Virus record (IMG/VR): IMGVR_UViG_3300030107_000818
Location: 1-51,276 of that record
Length of the DNA: 51,276 nt
DNA from: a virus
Direction: 5' to 3' (one strand)
The notes beneath the pieces are model-generated. The model did not search any database and was not told where the DNA came from. It saw only the letters and a list, made by a program, of their open reading frames with translations. The position numbers and the translations under genes were made by a program. Below, piece after piece: positions 23,822 through 34,520 of the stretch; position 1 is the first letter of the stretch; each line of letters begins with the position of its first letter.

Positions 23822-24230
23822 AAAAGACCGGAAGAAATTTGATATAGATTTAAAGTTCGGTAGTATCAGAGAAGACAAAGTAGCAGAGATGCTATGTAAT
23901 AAACGAATAGAAGTCAAATCTGAAAGAGGTATGTGGATGGATACTGGAAACATAGCTATTGAATATGAAAGCTATGGTAAACCTTCTGGTATTGAAGCAA
24001 CTGAATCAGACTATTGGTTTCATCATCTTTGTGTCGGCGATAAAGAATACTGTACCTTAGTATTTCATACTGAAGTTTTAAGAACTATAGTTAAAGAACT
24101 AGATAGTTTTAAAACCGTAGCCGGAGGAGACCACAATGCTAGTAGAATGTGGTTAGTTAATTTACAAAAGCTATTTTCATCTGATGTTATCAAAGCTTTT
24201 AAGGAAATAGAAGATGAGCAAAAGAAATAA
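23808..24230 (+). CDS. Putative PD-(D/E)XK-type endonuclease (140 aa)
   Basis: GTG start at 23808 inside the polymerase end, with AGGAG about 9 nt upstream. The core reads RIEVKSERG, then NIAIEYESYGKPSGI and ATESDYWFHHLCV. The E-V-K and downstream E/D residues fit a PD-(D/E)XK nuclease site. The family assignment is by motif and position; T7 carries gp3 endonuclease in the comparable block. It may resolve junctions or cut host DNA. Catalysis is not proven. Confidence 0.55.
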   Translation: MKPTKKDRKKFDIDLKFGSIREDKVAEMLCNKRIEVKSERGMWMDTGNIAIEYESYGKPSGIEATESDYWFHHLCVGDKEYCTLVFHTEVLRTIVKELDSFKTVAGGDHNASRMWLVNLQKLFSSDVIKAFKEIEDEQKK

Positions 24231-25092
24231 AAATTTAGATACCTTAGTAGAAGATATCTATAGCACTATCGGAGTTCTTTCTGCCGGTGAAAAAATTAAA
24301 ATACCTAAGAAATTAATAGAAGAATTAGGTGTTGATATTGCTAGTTGTGTACAGGAGTGGGCTACTCCATTAAAAAGAAACAAAGCAACTACTCAAACAC
24401 TAAGAATGTCTAACATCGGTAAGCCTGAAAGGCAGCTGTGGTACGACATGCACGAAGAGAAAGATAAAGATTCTGAGTTGCAACCCTCTACCTTTATTAA
24501 ATTTTTATATGGACATATCTTAGAAGTGTTACTAATATTTTTTATTAAACTTGCAGGACATAGAGTTACAGCTGAGCAAAAAGCCGTATCTGTTAAAGGT
24601 ATTAAGGGACACATGGACTGTAAAATTGATGGAGAAGTAGTAGATATTAAGACTGCTTCTGGTTATTCTTTTAGAAAGTTTAGAGAAGGCACACTAGCAG
24701 AGCAAGATACCTTTGGATACATGGCTCAGCTTGCCGGATATGAAGAAGCAGAGAAGACAAACGGTGGTGGATTTTTAGCATTCAATAAAGAGACAGGAGA
24801 ATTAGCCTTGTTTCGTCCCCAAGACCTTGACAAACCTAATATAAAGTCTAAAATAGATAGAGTAAAAAAAATTATCAAGTCGGATTCTCCACCTGATTAT
24901 TGCTTTACTGCAGTACCGGAAGGTCAGTCTGGTAACATGAAGTTACCTAGAGAGTGTACTTTCTGCCCATATAAATTTACATGTCGAGCCTCTTCCAATG
25001 ATGGAAAGGGTCTTCGTGTTTTTAAATATGCTAAAGGACCAGTATATTTTACCAAGATAGTTAAGGAACCTAATGTAGAGGAATTATTATGA
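24214..25092 (+). CDS. PD-(D/E)XK exonuclease, RecB/Cas4-like (292 aa)
   Basis: Nuclease motifs: D135 (KGHMDCKIDG), D144-x-K146 (VVDIKTAS) and a following Q/Y motif (YMAQLAGY, about 169-176). The C-terminus has CTFCPYKFTC, a Cys cluster like that of iron-sulfur or zinc-binding RecB/Cas4 nucleases. It is in the T7 gp6 position by order (polymerase, nuclease, exonuclease), so I infer recycling of host DNA and primer removal. Overlaps its neighbour at both ends. Confidence 0.7.
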   Translation: MSKRNKNLDTLVEDIYSTIGVLSAGEKIKIPKKLIEELGVDIASCVQEWATPLKRNKATTQTLRMSNIGKPERQLWYDMHEEKDKDSELQPSTFIKFLYGHILEVLLIFFIKLAGHRVTAEQKAVSVKGIKGHMDCKIDGEVVDIKTASGYSFRKFREGTLAEQDTFGYMAQLAGYEEAEKTNGGGFLAFNKETGELALFRPQDLDKPNIKSKIDRVKKIIKSDSPPDYCFTAVPEGQSGNMKLPRECTFCPYKFTCRASSNDGKGLRVFKYAKGPVYFTKIVKEPNVEELL

Positions 25093-28891: not shown

Positions 28892-29084
28892 AGTATTACT
28901 GACCAGAGAAAACAAAATAGTGACAGAACTTAGTATGCTTCCAGAGAATGAAGTTGATAATGTGTTTCCAATTTGTGAGAAAGAAATAATTAAAAATATT
29001 ATTAGAAACGCAAAGACTAAGTTAGACCCTCTACATAAGTTTTTAGAAAGAGAAGTTAATGCTTTAGTAACAAATGAAGTTTGA
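28857..29084 (+). CDS. Hypothetical protein (75 aa)
   Basis: Starts inside the nrdB end. Reads MSQKEANLISFKVLLTRENK, then acidic helices. No motif is recognised. Overlaps the following membrane-protein gene by 11 nt. Confidence 0.5.
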   Translation: MSQKEANLISFKVLLTRENKIVTELSMLPENEVDNVFPICEKEIIKNIIRNAKTKLDPLHKFLEREVNALVTNEV

Positions 29085-29364
29085 TTTAGAAGAATTAAAA
29101 AATTCCAAAAGGATATTTAAGTCGGCTACTCCGAAAGGAGATATGTCTTGGTATGTTAAATGGATATCAAGTTTTATAATTGTAACTGCTATGTCTTTAC
29201 GAGGCGTAGAAGGTATGCAATTATATGATTTAAGTTTATCTATTATAGGAGTATCAGGTTGGTTGTTCGTAGGATTACTTTGGAAAGACAGGGCATTAAT
29301 AATATTAAATGCAGTTGGTCTAGCTTTTTTAATAAAGAATCTTATTACTGCAATATTTTCTTAA
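29074..29364 (+). CDS. Small membrane protein (96 aa), DUF6552-like
   Basis: A basic soluble N-terminus (residues 1-26) is followed by MSWYVKWISSFIIVTAMSLR and two more hydrophobic helices (about 54-71 and 76-94). This Met-Ser-Trp-Tyr-Val-Lys-Trp pattern recurs in marine phage proteins. Function is unknown. Last gene of the rightward arm. Confidence 0.65.
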   Translation: MKFDLEELKNSKRIFKSATPKGDMSWYVKWISSFIIVTAMSLRGVEGMQLYDLSLSIIGVSGWLFVGLLWKDRALIILNAVGLAFLIKNLITAIFS

Positions 29365-29472
29365 TTTTTTAAAAATTGACCTCACACAATCTCGTGTAAG
29401 ACATTCTTTTAATGTTAGTAATGATATCCTTTGGATTTTTAATAAAAGTTCTTAGAGAGCCTCTGAGTAGCT
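29365..29472. other. Convergence of the two transcription arms
   Basis: About 108 bp between the last + gene and the last - gene. AATTTTT/AAAAATT lies just after the + stop. On the minus strand AGAGC-TACTCAGAG-GCTCT (29474-29456) overlaps the cyclase stop and is followed by ACTTTTATT, a possible weak terminator. No strong bidirectional terminator is evident. Confidence 0.4.
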
Positions 29473-31281
29473 CTACGAGGATTTAGCCTTATTTTGAGGG
29501 AAATATATGGTAATTGGCTCTGATTTACCCTTGACCATAATACTATCTATCTTTTCGTAATCAAAAACATCACCCGCTAGTTCTTTAGTGTACTCAGAAA
29601 TAATAATCTTCCATTGTTTGTAATCATTTCTACCAGCAGTTGCTTCAAGTCTAGCTGATAAATTAACTGCATCACCTACTACTGAGTAATCAAACCTAGT
29701 TTCACTTCCCATATTCCCCACAATACAAATTCCGGAGTTCACTCCAGTCCCTACATTGATAGGCGGTAAGTCTAATCCTTGTTCTTTAAATTGTTTATTT
29801 AGTTCTACTGTTGCTTGTTCTATTTCTATCGCAGATTTAATAGCTAACTCTGCATGGTTCTTACAAGGGAGAGGTGCATTCCAAAATGCCATAATACAAT
29901 CGCCCATATACTTATCTATGGTTCCACCATTAGCAAGGATAATTTTTGTCATCTTATCTAAGTAAGTATTGATAAGTTCTACTAGACCTTCAGGGTCATC
30001 ATTATTCTTAAATACTTCTGAGACAGGAGTAAAGCCCATAATGTCAGTAAACAAGAACGTCATCTCCTTTCTTTCACCACCTAGCTTAAGAAGCTCTGGA
30101 TTCTTTTGTAGCATAGCTACCATGTCTGGAGATAGATAAGTTCCAAATTGTTTTTTAATCTGTTGTCTAAGTTTGAACTGAGTTCTAAAGTTTAAATAGA
30201 ACTGTTGAGAAGCTATAACAAACATACTTATCAAACTCCAAGTAACATCTATTAGATATCCTATAGAAATAAAGTAATATCCTAAGTAGGCTACACCGGA
30301 CATTGCAGTTCCTGCTAATGCTATACCCCAAGTAAGTCCAAAGTAACTGACAACAAAAGCTACCAACAAGACTGAAGTGCATAATAATAATAGTTCAACA
30401 AACAATCTATAGTCTGGTATCTGAGGTGATTCAATTAAAATACTTTCAGCAAGAGCCGCTTGAATCTTGTGAGGTTCTAATAAGCCCTTTGGTGTAGCTA
30501 GTTGAGGCATTACTCCTGCTGCAGTTACTCCTACAAATACAAACTTATCTTTAACATCCATTTCTTTTAGTGTAGTTTGTGGAGTATCTACCCAACTTAT
30601 CCATTTTCTACCCATACTATCTGTATTTATTTCTGGCAGACCTCTGACTCTTATTTGTTCTATTCCATTTTCATTTGTTTTTATTTGATAGGTTGAAGCA
30701 TCTACTAAAGTTTTTAATACTTCAGTACCAAAAGCAGCCACCCAACCATCAGGTGTTTGTTGTAATAAAGGTAATCTTCTAACAAGGTTATCTACATCTA
30801 CTGGAGCAGATACCGCACCTTGAGAAGCAGAACTTTGTAGTTCGGGAATGTTTTGTAAAAAGCCTGGAGCTTTAGGTAAGACTACATCTGGACCAAGTAT
30901 AACTGTACCATGTGTCTTTGGGTATTCTCCATTATCAAATTCAGGCATAGCTAAGATACTAGGTGAATAACTTAGGGCTGTACTAAAATCTTTATCGCCA
31001 CCAAATCTATCTTCTTGAGGAAACAGTATAACCCAACCAACTCCAATAGCTCCGTTGTTTAATAAATCAATTTGAATTTGAGCAAGGTCTTGTCGAGGAA
31101 AAGGATAACCACCTCTTTCTTGTACATCTTCTTCTGTTATATTAAGAATAACAAAATGTCCAGAAGGCTCTGGAGTTTCTACAAAGGCATCAAAGGTTTT
31201 TAATCTTAGTATTTCTAAGGGTACAAAATTAAAAAGTAAAGGTACGATTAGTAGGGCTAGTAAAGGTATTGACCACTTCAT
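29473..31281 (-). CDS. CHASE2-domain adenylate/guanylate cyclase, class III (602 aa)
   Basis: An N-terminal membrane helix (about 3-20) leads into a CHASE2 sensor domain (about 25-285) in the periplasm. Three membrane helices (about 293-312, 315-335, 338-357) are followed by a class III cyclase domain (about 405-590). Metal ligands D413 (FTDIMGFT) and D461 (MGDCIMAFWNAP), base-selecting K457 and D531 (RFDYSVVGD), and N540 and R544 (AVNLSARLE) are all present, so it should be active. The Lys/Asp pair favours ATP, giving cAMP. One base separates it from the FecR gene. A second-messenger enzyme in a phage is unusual. Confidence 0.93.
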   Translation of the reverse strand: MKWSIPLLALLIVPLLFNFVPLEILRLKTFDAFVETPEPSGHFVILNITEEDVQERGGYPFPRQDLAQIQIDLLNNGAIGVGWVILFPQEDRFGGDKDFSTALSYSPSILAMPEFDNGEYPKTHGTVILGPDVVLPKAPGFLQNIPELQSSASQGAVSAPVDVDNLVRRLPLLQQTPDGWVAAFGTEVLKTLVDASTYQIKTNENGIEQIRVRGLPEINTDSMGRKWISWVDTPQTTLKEMDVKDKFVFVGVTAAGVMPQLATPKGLLEPHKIQAALAESILIESPQIPDYRLFVELLLLCTSVLLVAFVVSYFGLTWGIALAGTAMSGVAYLGYYFISIGYLIDVTWSLISMFVIASQQFYLNFRTQFKLRQQIKKQFGTYLSPDMVAMLQKNPELLKLGGERKEMTFLFTDIMGFTPVSEVFKNNDDPEGLVELINTYLDKMTKIILANGGTIDKYMGDCIMAFWNAPLPCKNHAELAIKSAIEIEQATVELNKQFKEQGLDLPPINVGTGVNSGICIVGNMGSETRFDYSVVGDAVNLSARLEATAGRNDYKQWKIIISEYTKELAGDVFDYEKIDSIMVKGKSEPITIYFPQNKAKSS

Positions 31282-31282
31282 A

Positions 31283-32395
31283 TTAACTGCTCTGTTTAAT
31301 TGTTATCTTAGAAGAGCTACCACCATTAACAATAATCTGTGTACTTTTACCGTTCTGTACAAGTATGACTGTATACGAGGCTGATTTATCTAAATCAATT
31401 CTTACAGTATCTTCTAAGGCTTTGTAGAAAGTTAAAGTATTATCAGTAGTAAAAGTATTGATTTGTGTTTCAGCATCAAAACCAAATGAAGTTCCTTTTA
31501 AATCTAAGTCAGCTTGTAATAAAGTTTCTGTTTGGTCAAGCTCATTGATATCTTCAATAATATTTAAAAGGTCTTCAAGAAAATTTACATCAAGATAATT
31601 TATATCAAGCTCATTAAACTCTAAATCATCTTGAGCTAAATAGTCTACATCTAAGTCTTCAAATTCTAAGTAGTCTACATCTAATATATTATTACTACTG
31701 GTATCTGTTGTTGTTTCAGTTAAACTTATTTCTTCTTTAGGTGGATTAACAATTAACATATTGTCAATTAACTGAGTAGTAATATCCAGTATAACTGGCT
31801 TAGATGGTTCAGTTTCAAACATAGAAACTGTAGTAGCTTGGAAGGGCTGATTAAGTACTACCTCACCTGCAGCAGTAGCTACAAGTATTTCTCCACTTGG
31901 AGTACCATCATCTTTAGGTAGTAATATGATAAGAGATTCACCTAGTTCATTTACTGTCAGAGTAAAGTCTGTACCACGAATTGACACATTAGCACTTGGT
32001 GTCTTAATAGCAATGTTTTCTTTATTGATGTTGTTTAGTTTACCAGTAATAAACCTAGCAGTTCCACTAGTAAAATTAAGAGCCATCCTAGATTTAGATG
32101 GATTAGGGTCATAAATAAATTCATCTATGAGCAATTCAGAATGCTCGGTCAGACGAACTTGAGTATTATTAAGAAAGGTAATACCCATCCTACCGTTAGA
32201 AGTTTCTACATTGTCAAAACTTTCTATACCAAAAGATAAGGCAGCATCATAAGGTGCATGTTCCCTAACGACCCTGCCATTACCTTTAAGTTCTGTAATA
32301 TTTCCTATGCTAACATCCGACTGCTGTTCCGCCGTCATCTTGTATGACGCAAACGCTGCCGTTATCACCAGAAGAAATAATCTTGAGCCAATCAT
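31283..32395 (-). CDS. Secreted FecR-domain protein (370 aa)
   Basis: Signal peptide (MIGSRLFLLVITAAFASYK). FecR domain (about 35-165): FDNVETSNGRMGITFLNNTQ, EHSELLIDEFIYDP, LNFTSGTARFITGK, and IKTPSANVSIRGTDF, the family's hallmark RGTDF. A Leu/Asp/Tyr-rich repetitive stretch (EFEDLDVDYL, NELDINYLDVNFL) follows at about 250-290, then a beta-rich end. FecR proteins are periplasmic signal transducers; in bacteria FecR-domain genes often sit beside CHASE2 cyclases, as here. Its start lies inside the curlin gene; M1 is preferred because it begins a signal peptide, though no strong ribosome site is seen. Confidence 0.88.
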   Translation of the reverse strand: MIGSRLFLLVITAAFASYKMTAEQQSDVSIGNITELKGNGRVVREHAPYDAALSFGIESFDNVETSNGRMGITFLNNTQVRLTEHSELLIDEFIYDPNPSKSRMALNFTSGTARFITGKLNNINKENIAIKTPSANVSIRGTDFTLTVNELGESLIILLPKDDGTPSGEILVATAAGEVVLNQPFQATTVSMFETEPSKPVILDITTQLIDNMLIVNPPKEEISLTETTTDTSSNNILDVDYLEFEDLDVDYLAQDDLEFNELDINYLDVNFLEDLLNIIEDINELDQTETLLQADLDLKGTSFGFDAETQINTFTTDNTLTFYKALEDTVRIDLDKSASYTVILVQNGKSTQIIVNGGSSSKITIKQSS

Positions 32396-33029
32396 TATTT
32401 AATGTACTTGCCTGTGTAATATTAAAAGTTCGTGAATCACCTGTCTGGTCTAGGTAAAAGTACCCGCCAGCATATCCACTACCGTCAAAAGTTACATTGT
32501 TGCTATCACCATCTATATCAACCCACGAAGTGCCACCATCATAATTGATGTCGAAATCCAATGTATTTGAACTCCCATTTATAACCCAGTCCAAGTCAGT
32601 ATTACTAGCCATAGAACTTGTCCCTACATTTAATGTAAAGTCATTGCTATCACCAGTAGCCTGAACATTGAAGTCTGAGCTATCAGCACCATAGGTATTA
32701 GTTGGGTCAACTTGAATAGTAAATTCATTTGAACTACCATCAAAATTAAAATAGCCTGTAATACTATCTCCTAAGATATCACCATAGAATAAGTTATTAT
32801 CTCCTATTTGGTTAATATCTAGAGTTAGTGTAGAGCCATCTAAGTCTAATGCAGTTAGGTTTCCTGCTTGAGAATTTAAACCACCGATGATGTTTCCACC
32901 ACCAAGCTGTTCTAAATCTATGTTAGCAGTATCGCCTGATTGGTCTATATAGATTTCATTATCATCCCCGTATATCAATGCACTCGTCAGCATCAACATC
33001 ACAAGGCTTATTAATTTCAAAGTTTTCAT
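32310..33029 (-). CDS. Secreted curlin-repeat protein, CsgA/CsgB-like (239 aa)
   Basis: Signal peptide (MKTLKLISLVMLMLTSALIYG). Repeats of the curlin type Q-x-G-x-x-x-N/A...Q: IYIDQSGDTANIDLEQLGG, TLDINQIGDNNLFYG, NVQATGDSNDFTLN, ININGSSN-like and YLDQTGDSRTFNITQAS, spaced about 20-40 residues, Asp/Asn/Ser/Gly rich and poor in charge-positive residues. The last residues hold two Cys (VCVIQ...VGC). The family forms extracellular amyloid after export through CsgG. Overlaps csgG by 68 nt and the FecR gene by 86 nt. Nucleator (CsgB) or subunit (CsgA) role cannot be told. Confidence 0.78.
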   Translation of the reverse strand: MKTLKLISLVMLMLTSALIYGDDNEIYIDQSGDTANIDLEQLGGGNIIGGLNSQAGNLTALDLDGSTLTLDINQIGDNNLFYGDILGDSITGYFNFDGSSNEFTIQVDPTNTYGADSSDFNVQATGDSNDFTLNVGTSSMASNTDLDWVINGSSNTLDFDINYDGGTSWVDIDGDSNNVTFDGSGYAGGYFYLDQTGDSRTFNITQASTLNNDWLKIISSGDNGSVCVIQDDGGTAVGC

Positions 33030-33822
33030 ATTTCCAATACCCTCTATTTATTCCTATTTTTATTAAATTTAATACGCCAGCTTCTATTGCCTTTTGCAAA
33101 GCTATAGAACCAGCTTCGTTCTCAGCGATGCCTCCTTCTATTTCTACGAGTTCAGTACCCATTTCAATAAAACGAAAAACATCTTGAGAAACACTTGTTG
33201 ATAAAATATTTTTAGAAACCGTAGTCTCCATCAACACTTCACCAGTAGACACAGAAACTATTCGTAATGAAATAGTAACTACATCTTCTCTATACTGAGT
33301 ACTATTACCTATGCCTAGATACCTAGCACCCAATCCCCCAGTTTCAATATTGGTATCATAAGATAAGACACCGCCCTGTATTATAAGACCAGCAAATAAT
33401 AAAGGTTGAAGTTTCCTATCCTCCTCAAAGTTTTCTCTGGTTGACCTAATAAGTTGTCGTTCTTTAGTAAGATTATCTAATCCTACTCTTTCAACAACTC
33501 TAAAAAATTGTCCATTAGCAGCATGTTTTAAAGCCCTAATGAGTAAAGCTTCAGGAGCTTGTGTGACTGCTGTGCTAAACATAGCAAAGCTACTGTTGCT
33601 TTTTCTTTGTCCTGTTAAATCTGAAAAGCTATTTGGATAGACAGCGATAATTGGTTTAAGTTCTGCAGGCGGTAAGTTTGCTAATTCTTCTGATTGTAAA
33701 TCTAAAACTTGAGCAGGTTTCCTGTCTTGTGATATAACTAAATCTTCGTTCTTCGCTATTACTGCACAACTAGAAAGTAAAATCGCCAATAGGCAAACTG
33801 ATAACTGTTGTATTCCCGTCAC
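32962..33822 (-). CDS. csgG: Curli secretion pore lipoprotein CsgG (286 aa)
   Basis: Lipoprotein signal with lipobox LSSC (Cys19). CsgG hallmarks: IIAVYPNSFSDLTGQRK, SSFAMFSTAVTQAPEALLI, GGLGARYLGIGNSTQYREDVV, ISLRIVSVSTGEVLMETTVSK and SVSQDVFRFIEMGTELVEIE. E. coli CsgG (277 aa) forms a nine-subunit outer-membrane channel that exports CsgA. The length and the transmembrane and constriction segments look intact. Located between csgF and the curlin gene, overlapping both. Outer-membrane delivery requires a host Lol system. Confidence 0.95.
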   Translation of the reverse strand: MTGIQQLSVCLLAILLSSCAVIAKNEDLVISQDRKPAQVLDLQSEELANLPPAELKPIIAVYPNSFSDLTGQRKSNSSFAMFSTAVTQAPEALLIRALKHAANGQFFRVVERVGLDNLTKERQLIRSTRENFEEDRKLQPLLFAGLIIQGGVLSYDTNIETGGLGARYLGIGNSTQYREDVVTISLRIVSVSTGEVLMETTVSKNILSTSVSQDVFRFIEMGTELVEIEGGIAENEAGSIALQKAIEAGVLNLIKIGINRGYWKYENFEINKPCDVDADECIDIRG

Positions 33823-34219
33823 TATCTGTAATCCTTAATGTTATAATTCCGTCGACAACTTCAAATTCTATGGTGTTGCCTTCTAATTCTAATATCCCGC
33901 TATCGCTAGGGGTTTCTCCAAATAAATTTTCTACTAATTGTCTAGATAGTTGTGCATAAATTCTAGACTCTAAATTTCTTACAAATCTTGCAAGTGTTGT
34001 GTTCTCTGCGTCTCTTTCTATTTGTTCTTGTAAAGCTTTTACTTCTTCTTTAATTGTCATCTTACGCATGTGTTCTTGATTCTCAATCGTAAGATAATGT
34101 GCTGAAGTTCCTATACCGCTAAAGCTAGGGCTTTTAAATTTATGTACCATTTCATCGGCATCAGCAAAGCCGCTAACACCTAGTACCAAGATTATAAATA
34201 TTGTACTTAGTATTTTCAT
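33770..34219 (-). CDS. csgF: Curli assembly factor CsgF (149 aa)
   Basis: ATG 34219 follows GAGGAAATAATAGAA and begins a signal peptide (MKILSTIFIILVLGVSGFAD); an upstream in-frame codon lies inside the 95-aa gene. Mature N-terminus DEMVHKFKSPSFSGIG matches the CsgF peptide F-x-x-P-x-F-G/S-G that enters the CsgG channel. The C-terminal part (IYAQLSRQLVENLFG, then EFEVVDGIITLRITDSDGN and TTVISLPIGDFTF) matches the strand end of CsgF. In E. coli CsgF couples secretion to nucleation. It overlaps csgG by 53 nt. Confidence 0.88.
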   Translation of the reverse strand: MKILSTIFIILVLGVSGFADADEMVHKFKSPSFSGIGTSAHYLTIENQEHMRKMTIKEEVKALQEQIERDAENTTLARFVRNLESRIYAQLSRQLVENLFGETPSDSGILELEGNTIEFEVVDGIITLRITDSDGNTTVISLPIGDFTF

Positions 34220-34232
34220 TTCTATTATTTCC

Positions 34233-34520
34233 TCAATCTTTTCGTTGGTCTTTTTTTCCATCTGCTCTTGCTAACTTATCTACATCTACGGGAACGCCCA
34301 TAGCGGTTCTACACATTGTATCTATTCTTATTATGTCATTATCTATTTGTCTTACTCTATCTATTAAAGCTACTATCATGCCGTGTTGTGCATCTAATTT
34401 CTTATGAACGTCGGCGATTAGGTGGTTAAATAGTTTCCACACTAAAAACCCTGCGGCAACAGCAAAGGCTGCTGGAATACCAACAGTTTCTAATAACTTC
34501 ATCCACTGAGTTGTATTCAT
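34233..34520 (-). CDS. Membrane-anchored coiled-coil protein (95 aa), lysis-associated?
   Basis: Residues about 10-30 are one membrane helix (VGIPAAFAVAAGFLVWKLF), followed by a helix with KKLDAQHGMIVALIDRVRQI and a charged tail. The topology resembles an inner-membrane spanin subunit or accessory holin. Located between the holin-like gene and csgF. Function is inferred from topology only. Confidence 0.5.
   Translation of the reverse strand: MNTTQWMKLLETVGIPAAFAVAAGFLVWKLFNHLIADVHKKLDAQHGMIVALIDRVRQIDNDIIRIDTMCRTAMGVPVDVDKLARADGKKDQRKD

Follow-up and report, generated by a model that had tools for sequence, protein, structure and literature searches.

A CHASE2-linked class III adenylate cyclase, predicted to be competent, at the end of a curli cassette in a probable SAR11 phage

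Background

A type VIII secretion (T8SS) or curli cassette that includes a FecR protein and an adenylate cyclase was described in 2022 from pelagiphages of two families (PMC9599517), and the order reported there for the HTVC023P-type podoviral and the myoviral pelagiphages, CsgF-CsgG-curlin-FecR-cyclase, is also that of the locus analyzed here. The portions of that report covered here state that FecR and the cyclase are absent from bacterial curli operons, and its main text contains neither the term "CHASE2" nor the term "catalytic". Two further reports, in the portions covered, describe the CsgF/CsgG part (PMC7029224, PMC9004378), and the word "cyclase" does not occur in their main texts. An exact-phrase literature search for phage adenylate cyclases returned nothing, PMC9599517 having one in other words, and GenBank annotation names a cyclase in two phages, HTVC008M and Melnitz.

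The cyclase of Pelagibacter phage HTVC008M (KC465899, AGE60353.1, "adenylate/guanylyl cyclase") shows 42.7% identity over 95% to the one described here and belongs to the same cassette; this phage differs in being a myophage of the Kyanoviridae and in possessing a second curlin-like gene between FecR and the cyclase. The cyclase of Methylophilales phage Melnitz (MZ577097, QZI94833.1) shows 32.0% identity over 96%, again within the same cassette, with a Methylophilales strain rather than SAR11 as its host. Outside phages, the Burkholderia BiofilmReg operon, which has a link to biofilms, encodes a FecR protein predicted to lie outside the cytoplasm beside a CHASE2 signaling protein; its output is a histidine kinase, and the operon, in the portion of the description covered, has neither curli genes nor a cyclase gene (PMC5192318).

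The gene analyzed here adds one more member to a phage cassette already in the literature, and its active-site assignment is corrected below. Purifying selection on the cyclase, swapping of its domains, a bacterial operon of the same order (on a metagenome-derived contig) and the want of a recognizable cAMP reader were not found in the portions of the literature covered.

The phage and its curli cassette

The window, namely the whole stretch of 51,276 nucleotides analyzed here, comes from a viral record 52,674 bases long (IMGVR_UViG_3300030107_000818) with matches to terminase, portal, amidase, primase-helicase, DNA polymerase and ribonucleotide reductase. The terminase is nearest to those of the SAR11 HTCC7211 phages HTVC103P, HTVC104P and HTVC115P (63-68% identity; 1670 phage records with a match), so SAR11 is the likely host; as a candidate HTVC023P-type pelagiphage the virus was compared by terminase identity. 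The replication block also includes a Cas4-like exonuclease (24214-25092, plus strand; PHROG 1990, 1.2e-50). Nine phage records match the cyclase itself: HTVC008M accounts for two and Melnitz for four, and the other three matches are partial (two of these records are titled Acinetobacter phage).

The cyclase is the last gene of a CsgF-CsgG-curlin-FecR-cyclase cassette, whose features are as follows:

34233..34520, minus strand: small protein, 95 aa, one hydrophobic segment (by eye), no Pfam match
33770..34261, minus strand: CsgF, 163 aa (PF10614, 4e-17)
32962..33822, minus strand: CsgG, outer-membrane curli export pore, 286 aa (PF03783, 5.6e-50)
32310..33029, minus strand: curlin-repeat-like protein (CsgA/B-like fibre subunit), 239 aa (profile kinship to locus L088)
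31283..32395, minus strand: FecR-domain protein, 370 aa (PF04773, 7.3e-11)
29473..31281, minus strand: predicted CHASE2-class III adenylate cyclase, 602 aa (Pfam, alignment, model)
within 29473..31281, minus strand: metal-binding Asp 413 and 461, base-reading Lys457 and Ser533, Asn540, Arg544 (alignment)
29379..29402, minus strand: terminator-like hairpin of 10 pairs followed by a T-rich stretch, some 70 bases past the cyclase stop

The five genes that typify the pelagiphage cassette (csgF, csgG, curlin-repeat, FecR and cyclase) occur here in one run, the curlin call being made by profile kinship. The curlin-like protein has no Pfam match of its own at E 0.01; it displays a G..N motif at intervals of 22-33 residues, and its iterated profile matched both curlin-like genes of L088, a bacterial locus described below, with 129 and 155 bits, which are inflated because the profile was trained on such matches. 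One of these two genes was scanned and matches the curlin repeat (PF07012, Curlin_rpt). The predicted model of the window protein shows beta-rich repeats (pLDDT 82), and a fold search of the PDB with it gave no match at E 0.001 (FapC, E 0.67; the E. coli CsgA fibril, E 1.5), the search being therefore neutral on the curlin identity. The FecR protein has a hydrophobic N-terminus, which by eye reads as a signal peptide, and its stop codon ends one base before the cyclase ATG. The 95-aa protein, one or two copies of which lie directly 5' of csgF in relatives, occupies the place of the gene designated "HK" (histidine kinase) in the covered portion of PMC9599517; given its size and the want of a Pfam match, the product looks too small for a histidine kinase.

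The hairpin downstream of the cyclase is a possible end of the cassette transcript. Terminator-like sites in the region, as judged by consensus match, number 10 as against 2.5 +/- 1.8 in shuffles, and promoters show no excess over shuffles. On the plus strand at 29074-29364 lies a gene for a 96-aa protein with a DUF6552 match (1.5e-19) and a weak sugar-transporter (MtN3) match, for which 9 homologous ORFs were recovered among the loci compared, several of them close to the cyclase.

Domain architecture of the cyclase

The preliminary description had recognized a full-length class III cyclase in a phage, and this is borne out by an uninterrupted 602-codon ORF without internal stop, running on the minus strand from 31281 to 29473, and by two Pfam domains well above their cut-offs, namely CHASE2 at residues 10-304 (E 2.9e-27; 96.3 bits, cut-off 26.3) and Guanylate_cyc at residues 405-592 (E 1.4e-18; 67.6 bits, cut-off 21.9). 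The predicted model (mean pLDDT 88, pTM 0.64) agrees over some 200 residues with class III cyclases of solved structure (Foldseek, best E 9e-19), with TM-scores by target of 0.85-0.89 against Cya2 and CyaB. Fold, domain and active-site letters together mark the product as a class III nucleotidyl cyclase.

The layout is that of a CHASE2 receptor, with an N-terminal anchor, the CHASE2 domain, later membrane helices and a cytoplasmic output. Hydropathy indicates hydrophobic segments at 1-28, 288-325 and 337-358, and the predicted model has helices at 292-339 and 347-380, which leaves the number of helices after CHASE2 ambiguous. Thus, the CHASE2 sensor of the earlier reading stands, and its count of three membrane helices is plausible only, with hydropathy giving the N-terminal segment and two stretches and the model two helices.

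The active site and the probable product

In class IIIb adenylate cyclases, which respond to bicarbonate or CO2, the aspartate at the second base-specifying position is replaced by threonine (or serine). Spirulina CyaC (1wc1) and Pseudomonas CyaB (3r5g), which we take to be class IIIb enzymes, have in common with the window cyclase the catalytic fold, the metal-binding Asp pair, the Lys, and Ser/Thr at this second position; the CHASE2 sensor and the membrane anchor belong to the window cyclase. A predictive threonine is mentioned in the portion of PMC3383692 covered.

All six residues previously named as catalytic, namely D413, K457, D461, D531, N540 and R544, are present at those positions, and for five of them the assignment holds in the alignment. 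D413 and D461 align with the Asp residues of solved adenylate cyclases, and at K457 both CyaC and CyaB have Lys as well, whereas Cya2 (2w01, titled guanylyl cyclase) has Glu. The sixth, D531, is ruled out as a base-reading residue both by the alignment to solved cyclases, in which the Thr of CyaC and CyaB three residues before a conserved Gly aligns with S533, and by its variability in the viral rows. Among the matches listed, position 531 in the 82 viral rows including the window has Asp in 73, Ala in 7, Asn in 1 and Ser in 1; position 533 has Ser in 70, Thr in 11 and Asp in 1, so that Ser/Thr is found in 81/82. The earlier argument from a Lys/Asp pair to ATP, and so to cAMP, accordingly loses its Asp, the partner of K457 being S533; cAMP survives as the likely product given the Lys shared with CyaC and CyaB. 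The Lys/Ser pair is class IIIb-like as judged by alignment.

Among the same matches, D413, K457 and D461 are conserved in 83/83 viral rows, R544 in 82/82 and N540 in 81/82 (the 83 rows include the window as L001, a 99% identical L002, and L047, an incomplete row gapped at the last positions). The 83/83 is partly selected, as KYMGDCIM, which contains K457 and D461, was one of six patterns used to find the viral loci; the K and D are likewise retained in domain types in which this stretch reads DKYIGDAMM or DKFIGDAGM. D413, K457, D461, N540 and R544 are invariant across the 41 rows, viral and bacterial, of a separate alignment. The Melnitz cyclase (L083) differs in having Asp at the S533 position and Ser at the N540 position. 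Given these residues in a cultured phage, the activity of the Melnitz cyclase may be altered, and some phages may have a weak enzyme. The Melnitz authors observed that infected cells did not clump (PMC9004378).

Linkage of the cyclase to the cassette

Among CsgG-anchored phage loci (80 of 263 taken, 18 of the 80 excluded as too short), all 57 whose sequence continues for 3 kb or more beyond CsgG on its 3' side contain FecR; for the cyclase, assessable where 6.5 kb or more follow, the figure is 33/35, the two cassettes without it probably representing one virus kind. Conversely, in the cyclase-anchored viral set (80 of at least 598 loci) FecR is near and on the same strand in 50/57, and CsgG is near in 41/43 assessable loci, among the matches listed; all these counts include near-duplicate loci, and the two sets are partly drawn from the same contigs. 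A phage record of 1,499 bases titled Salmonella phage (OR851715.1) matches CsgG at 41.5% and is perhaps bacterial DNA filed as phage.

At nine loci among the matches listed, several of which resemble one another, the cyclase is encoded on the other strand yet adjoins the cassette, which argues that its retention is not mere co-transcription. Such an inversion might change the timing of transcription. The inverted loci are L005, L011, L012, L016, L018, L019, L020, L021 and L025.

Purifying selection and domain exchange

Whole-gene pairwise dN/dS was computed for relatives covering at least 80% of the gene (from L003-L014, L018, L030 and L056; 14 for the cyclase) and ranges over 0.09-0.25 in the 14 comparisons, values that are rough because dS is 0.9-1.9, some of the relatives also being near-copies of each other. 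As it has these values and a predicted model that matches solved class III cyclases, the gene is no chance ORF. By domain, dN/dS is 0.02-0.10 for the catalytic domain in the 8 relatives of the same catalytic type; against the other catalytic type it is 0.33 (L013) and 0.15 (L018). For CHASE2 it is 0.10-0.23 in all 10 relatives and 0.13-0.23 in the 8 of the same type. The cyclase is under purifying selection, which is strongest in the catalytic domain.

Comparison of the two domains further reveals that they have been exchanged between phages with the active sites kept. L013 and L018 share 83% of the window's CHASE2 and 47-48% of its cyclase domain, L010 shows the reverse with 63% and 93%, and L053 has 33% and 81%, respectively. 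In domain trees of 30 rows, which contain many weak and some long branches, L030 groups with L003 by CHASE2 (95, starred) and with L013 and L018 by the cyclase domain (94, 89; in a starred set of 9). A single CHASE2 clade of 18 rows (100, starred) contains three types of cyclase domain, typified by the window, L013 and L032, all of which retain both metal-binding Asp residues, the Lys and the Arg. We take this to mean that production of the signal is under selection while the parts that make it can be exchanged: that the enzyme is intact, strongly selected and assembled from interchanged sensor and catalytic domains argues for signal production itself as the selected function. The phage cyclase is complete and selectively maintained, and probably makes cAMP.

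Bacterial relatives

In the bacterial collection (80 of at least 565 loci), a FecR match is found in 22/80 loci and a CsgG match in 3/80. L084, L085, L086 and L087 fall in the phage clade (99), are of low GC and are probably phage contigs in metagenome-assembled genomes (MAGs). L088, from a Caulobacteraceae MAG, has the order CsgF-CsgG-curlin-curlin-FecR-cyclase, surrounded by a TonB receptor, a peptidase and glycosyltransferases; in contrast to the statement on bacterial curli operons in PMC9599517, in the portion covered, this contig thus combines FecR and a cyclase in one curli operon. In a full-length cyclase tree, built from the window together with 38 (of 82) viral and 29 (of 80) bacterial loci, L088 lies among the bacterial cyclases (99, 25 rows), and a role as donor of the phage cyclase is therefore not established. 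An operon of this type is rare, with FecR/cyclase in 0/18 other curli loci of its class or order examined with wide flanks (3 + 15, L227 having only about 5 kb downstream; the 15 stem from 34 strong CsgG matches of E 2.7e-46 or better, including that of L088's own genome, and one more is G189).

In ten loci, all but one titled Thalassospira, FecR lies directly 5' of a CHASE2 cyclase and the stretch examined contains no CsgG. A gene for PycTM, a Pycsar-type membrane effector (L088:10413-11006), lies about 440 bases downstream of the L088 cyclase. As a general bacterial pattern, a CHASE2-cyclase beside PycTM was rejected, with L088 the only case in a single-sequence search of 11,421 ORFs of the loci.

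The search for a cAMP reader

Two genomes, G213 and G303, matched without mismatch four SAR11 16S probe sequences, which a literature search did not return, and their relatives were counted as SAR11 by computed kinship alone, many of these genomes being smaller and possibly incomplete. Among the 41 genomes around G213, no class III cyclase, class I cyclase or CsgG was detected, and the cNMP-binding domain occurred in 3/41, none of these three being one of the 20 genomes that reach 1.2 Mb; around G303 it occurred in 4/61, the two sets overlapping. The same searches in 14 control genomes recovered class III cyclases in 5, a class I cyclase in 1, CsgG in 4 and the cNMP-binding domain in 10. The few cNMP-binding ORFs of the SAR11 group have 870 residues, and the one scanned (cut at 789) joins an acyltransferase domain and is not CRP. 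This rare large protein is found in L241, L242, L243 and L245, with the acyltransferase domain in L242. The host group thus appears to have neither its own cyclase nor CRP.

The phages gave a similar result: neither a cNMP-binding domain (PF00027) nor PycTM was found in any of 36 cyclase-bearing phage records (0/36 each), among which HTVC008M and Melnitz are whole and most others fragments; the set includes the window's own record and comprises mostly the longer ones behind the 83 viral loci, and the PycTM search had matches in only 2/14 control genomes. A phage-borne CRP or Pycsar effector was accordingly set aside for these 36 records, and the arrangement typical of Pycsar, with an effector encoded beside the cyclase, is not seen in them.

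A model for the cassette and its alternatives

The explanation that we favor, and hold to be probable on balance, is that the gene encodes a competent membrane-anchored class III (IIIb-like) adenylate cyclase, which forms the signaling end of a curli/type VIII secretion cassette in a probable SAR11 phage. The cassette would close the structural block of the minus strand and be expressed late together with that block, and CsgG and CsgF would export curlin-like fibres. The FecR-like protein, working in the periplasm, would signal the condition of the envelope or of the fibre export to CHASE2, which would switch cAMP production by a cytoplasmic homodimer. As the host group is apparently devoid of cyclase and CRP, the receptor would be an unrecognized phage or host protein, or the product may act outside a CRP circuit.

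A special case of this explanation is self-contained signaling through an unrecognized cyclic-nucleotide receptor of the phage's own, a version we consider doubtful. It would account for a catalytic domain so strongly selected in company with no known receptor, and PycTM does follow the cyclase in L088, the only bacterial operon recovered with this gene order; however, that neighbor is a single case, and the phage records, mostly fragments, yielded neither PF00027 nor PycTM.

A product other than cAMP (cGMP, cCMP or cUMP), as from a relative of Pycsar cyclases serving as a decoy or trigger against host defence, is distinctly improbable. The PADLOC PycC models do match the domain (best 6.9e-23), as is to be expected within one shared superfamily, but the Lys at 457 is that of CyaC and CyaB, with Glu in Cya2, and the neighbors are curli genes.

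We regard as very improbable the proposal of the preliminary description that phage cAMP reprograms host transcription, here through a host CRP-type factor. ATP as substrate is indicated by K457 and the solved relatives, and in model Gammaproteobacteria cAMP brings about csgD transcription, as stated in the portion of PMC9599517 covered; the same portion reports that pelagiphages have no CsgD, and the host is itself assigned from the terminase. The CRP route is unlikely given that genomes of the host group are mostly without cNMP-binding domains, in contrast to the controls, that none of the larger ones has one, that the scanned protein is an acyltransferase fusion, and that the 36 phage records lack the domain. 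The contrast drawn in the same description with phage enzymes that counter host defence may hold; the gene itself sits at the end of a curli-export cassette.

Least probable of all is a passenger gene that arrived with the curli genes and is functionless in the phage, for which the two assessable cassettes without cyclase and the altered site in Melnitz could be cited, but which is disfavored by the low dN/dS, above all in catalytic domains of like type, and by the replacement of domains, the other catalytic types on kindred sensors still being cyclases with their metal-binding and Lys residues.

Returning to the favored explanation of a cyclase at the signaling end of the cassette, a broader and quite tentative extension is that these phages install a complete signaling system of their own in a host group without a recognizable one, in which a FecR-CHASE2 envelope sensor, a shuffled cyclase output and an unrecognized receptor would time fibre export, lysis or superinfection exclusion. 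If SAR11 is indeed without a cAMP reader, the cassette would imply a novel cyclic-nucleotide receptor in a very abundant phage-host system of the ocean, or else an unusual role for cAMP.
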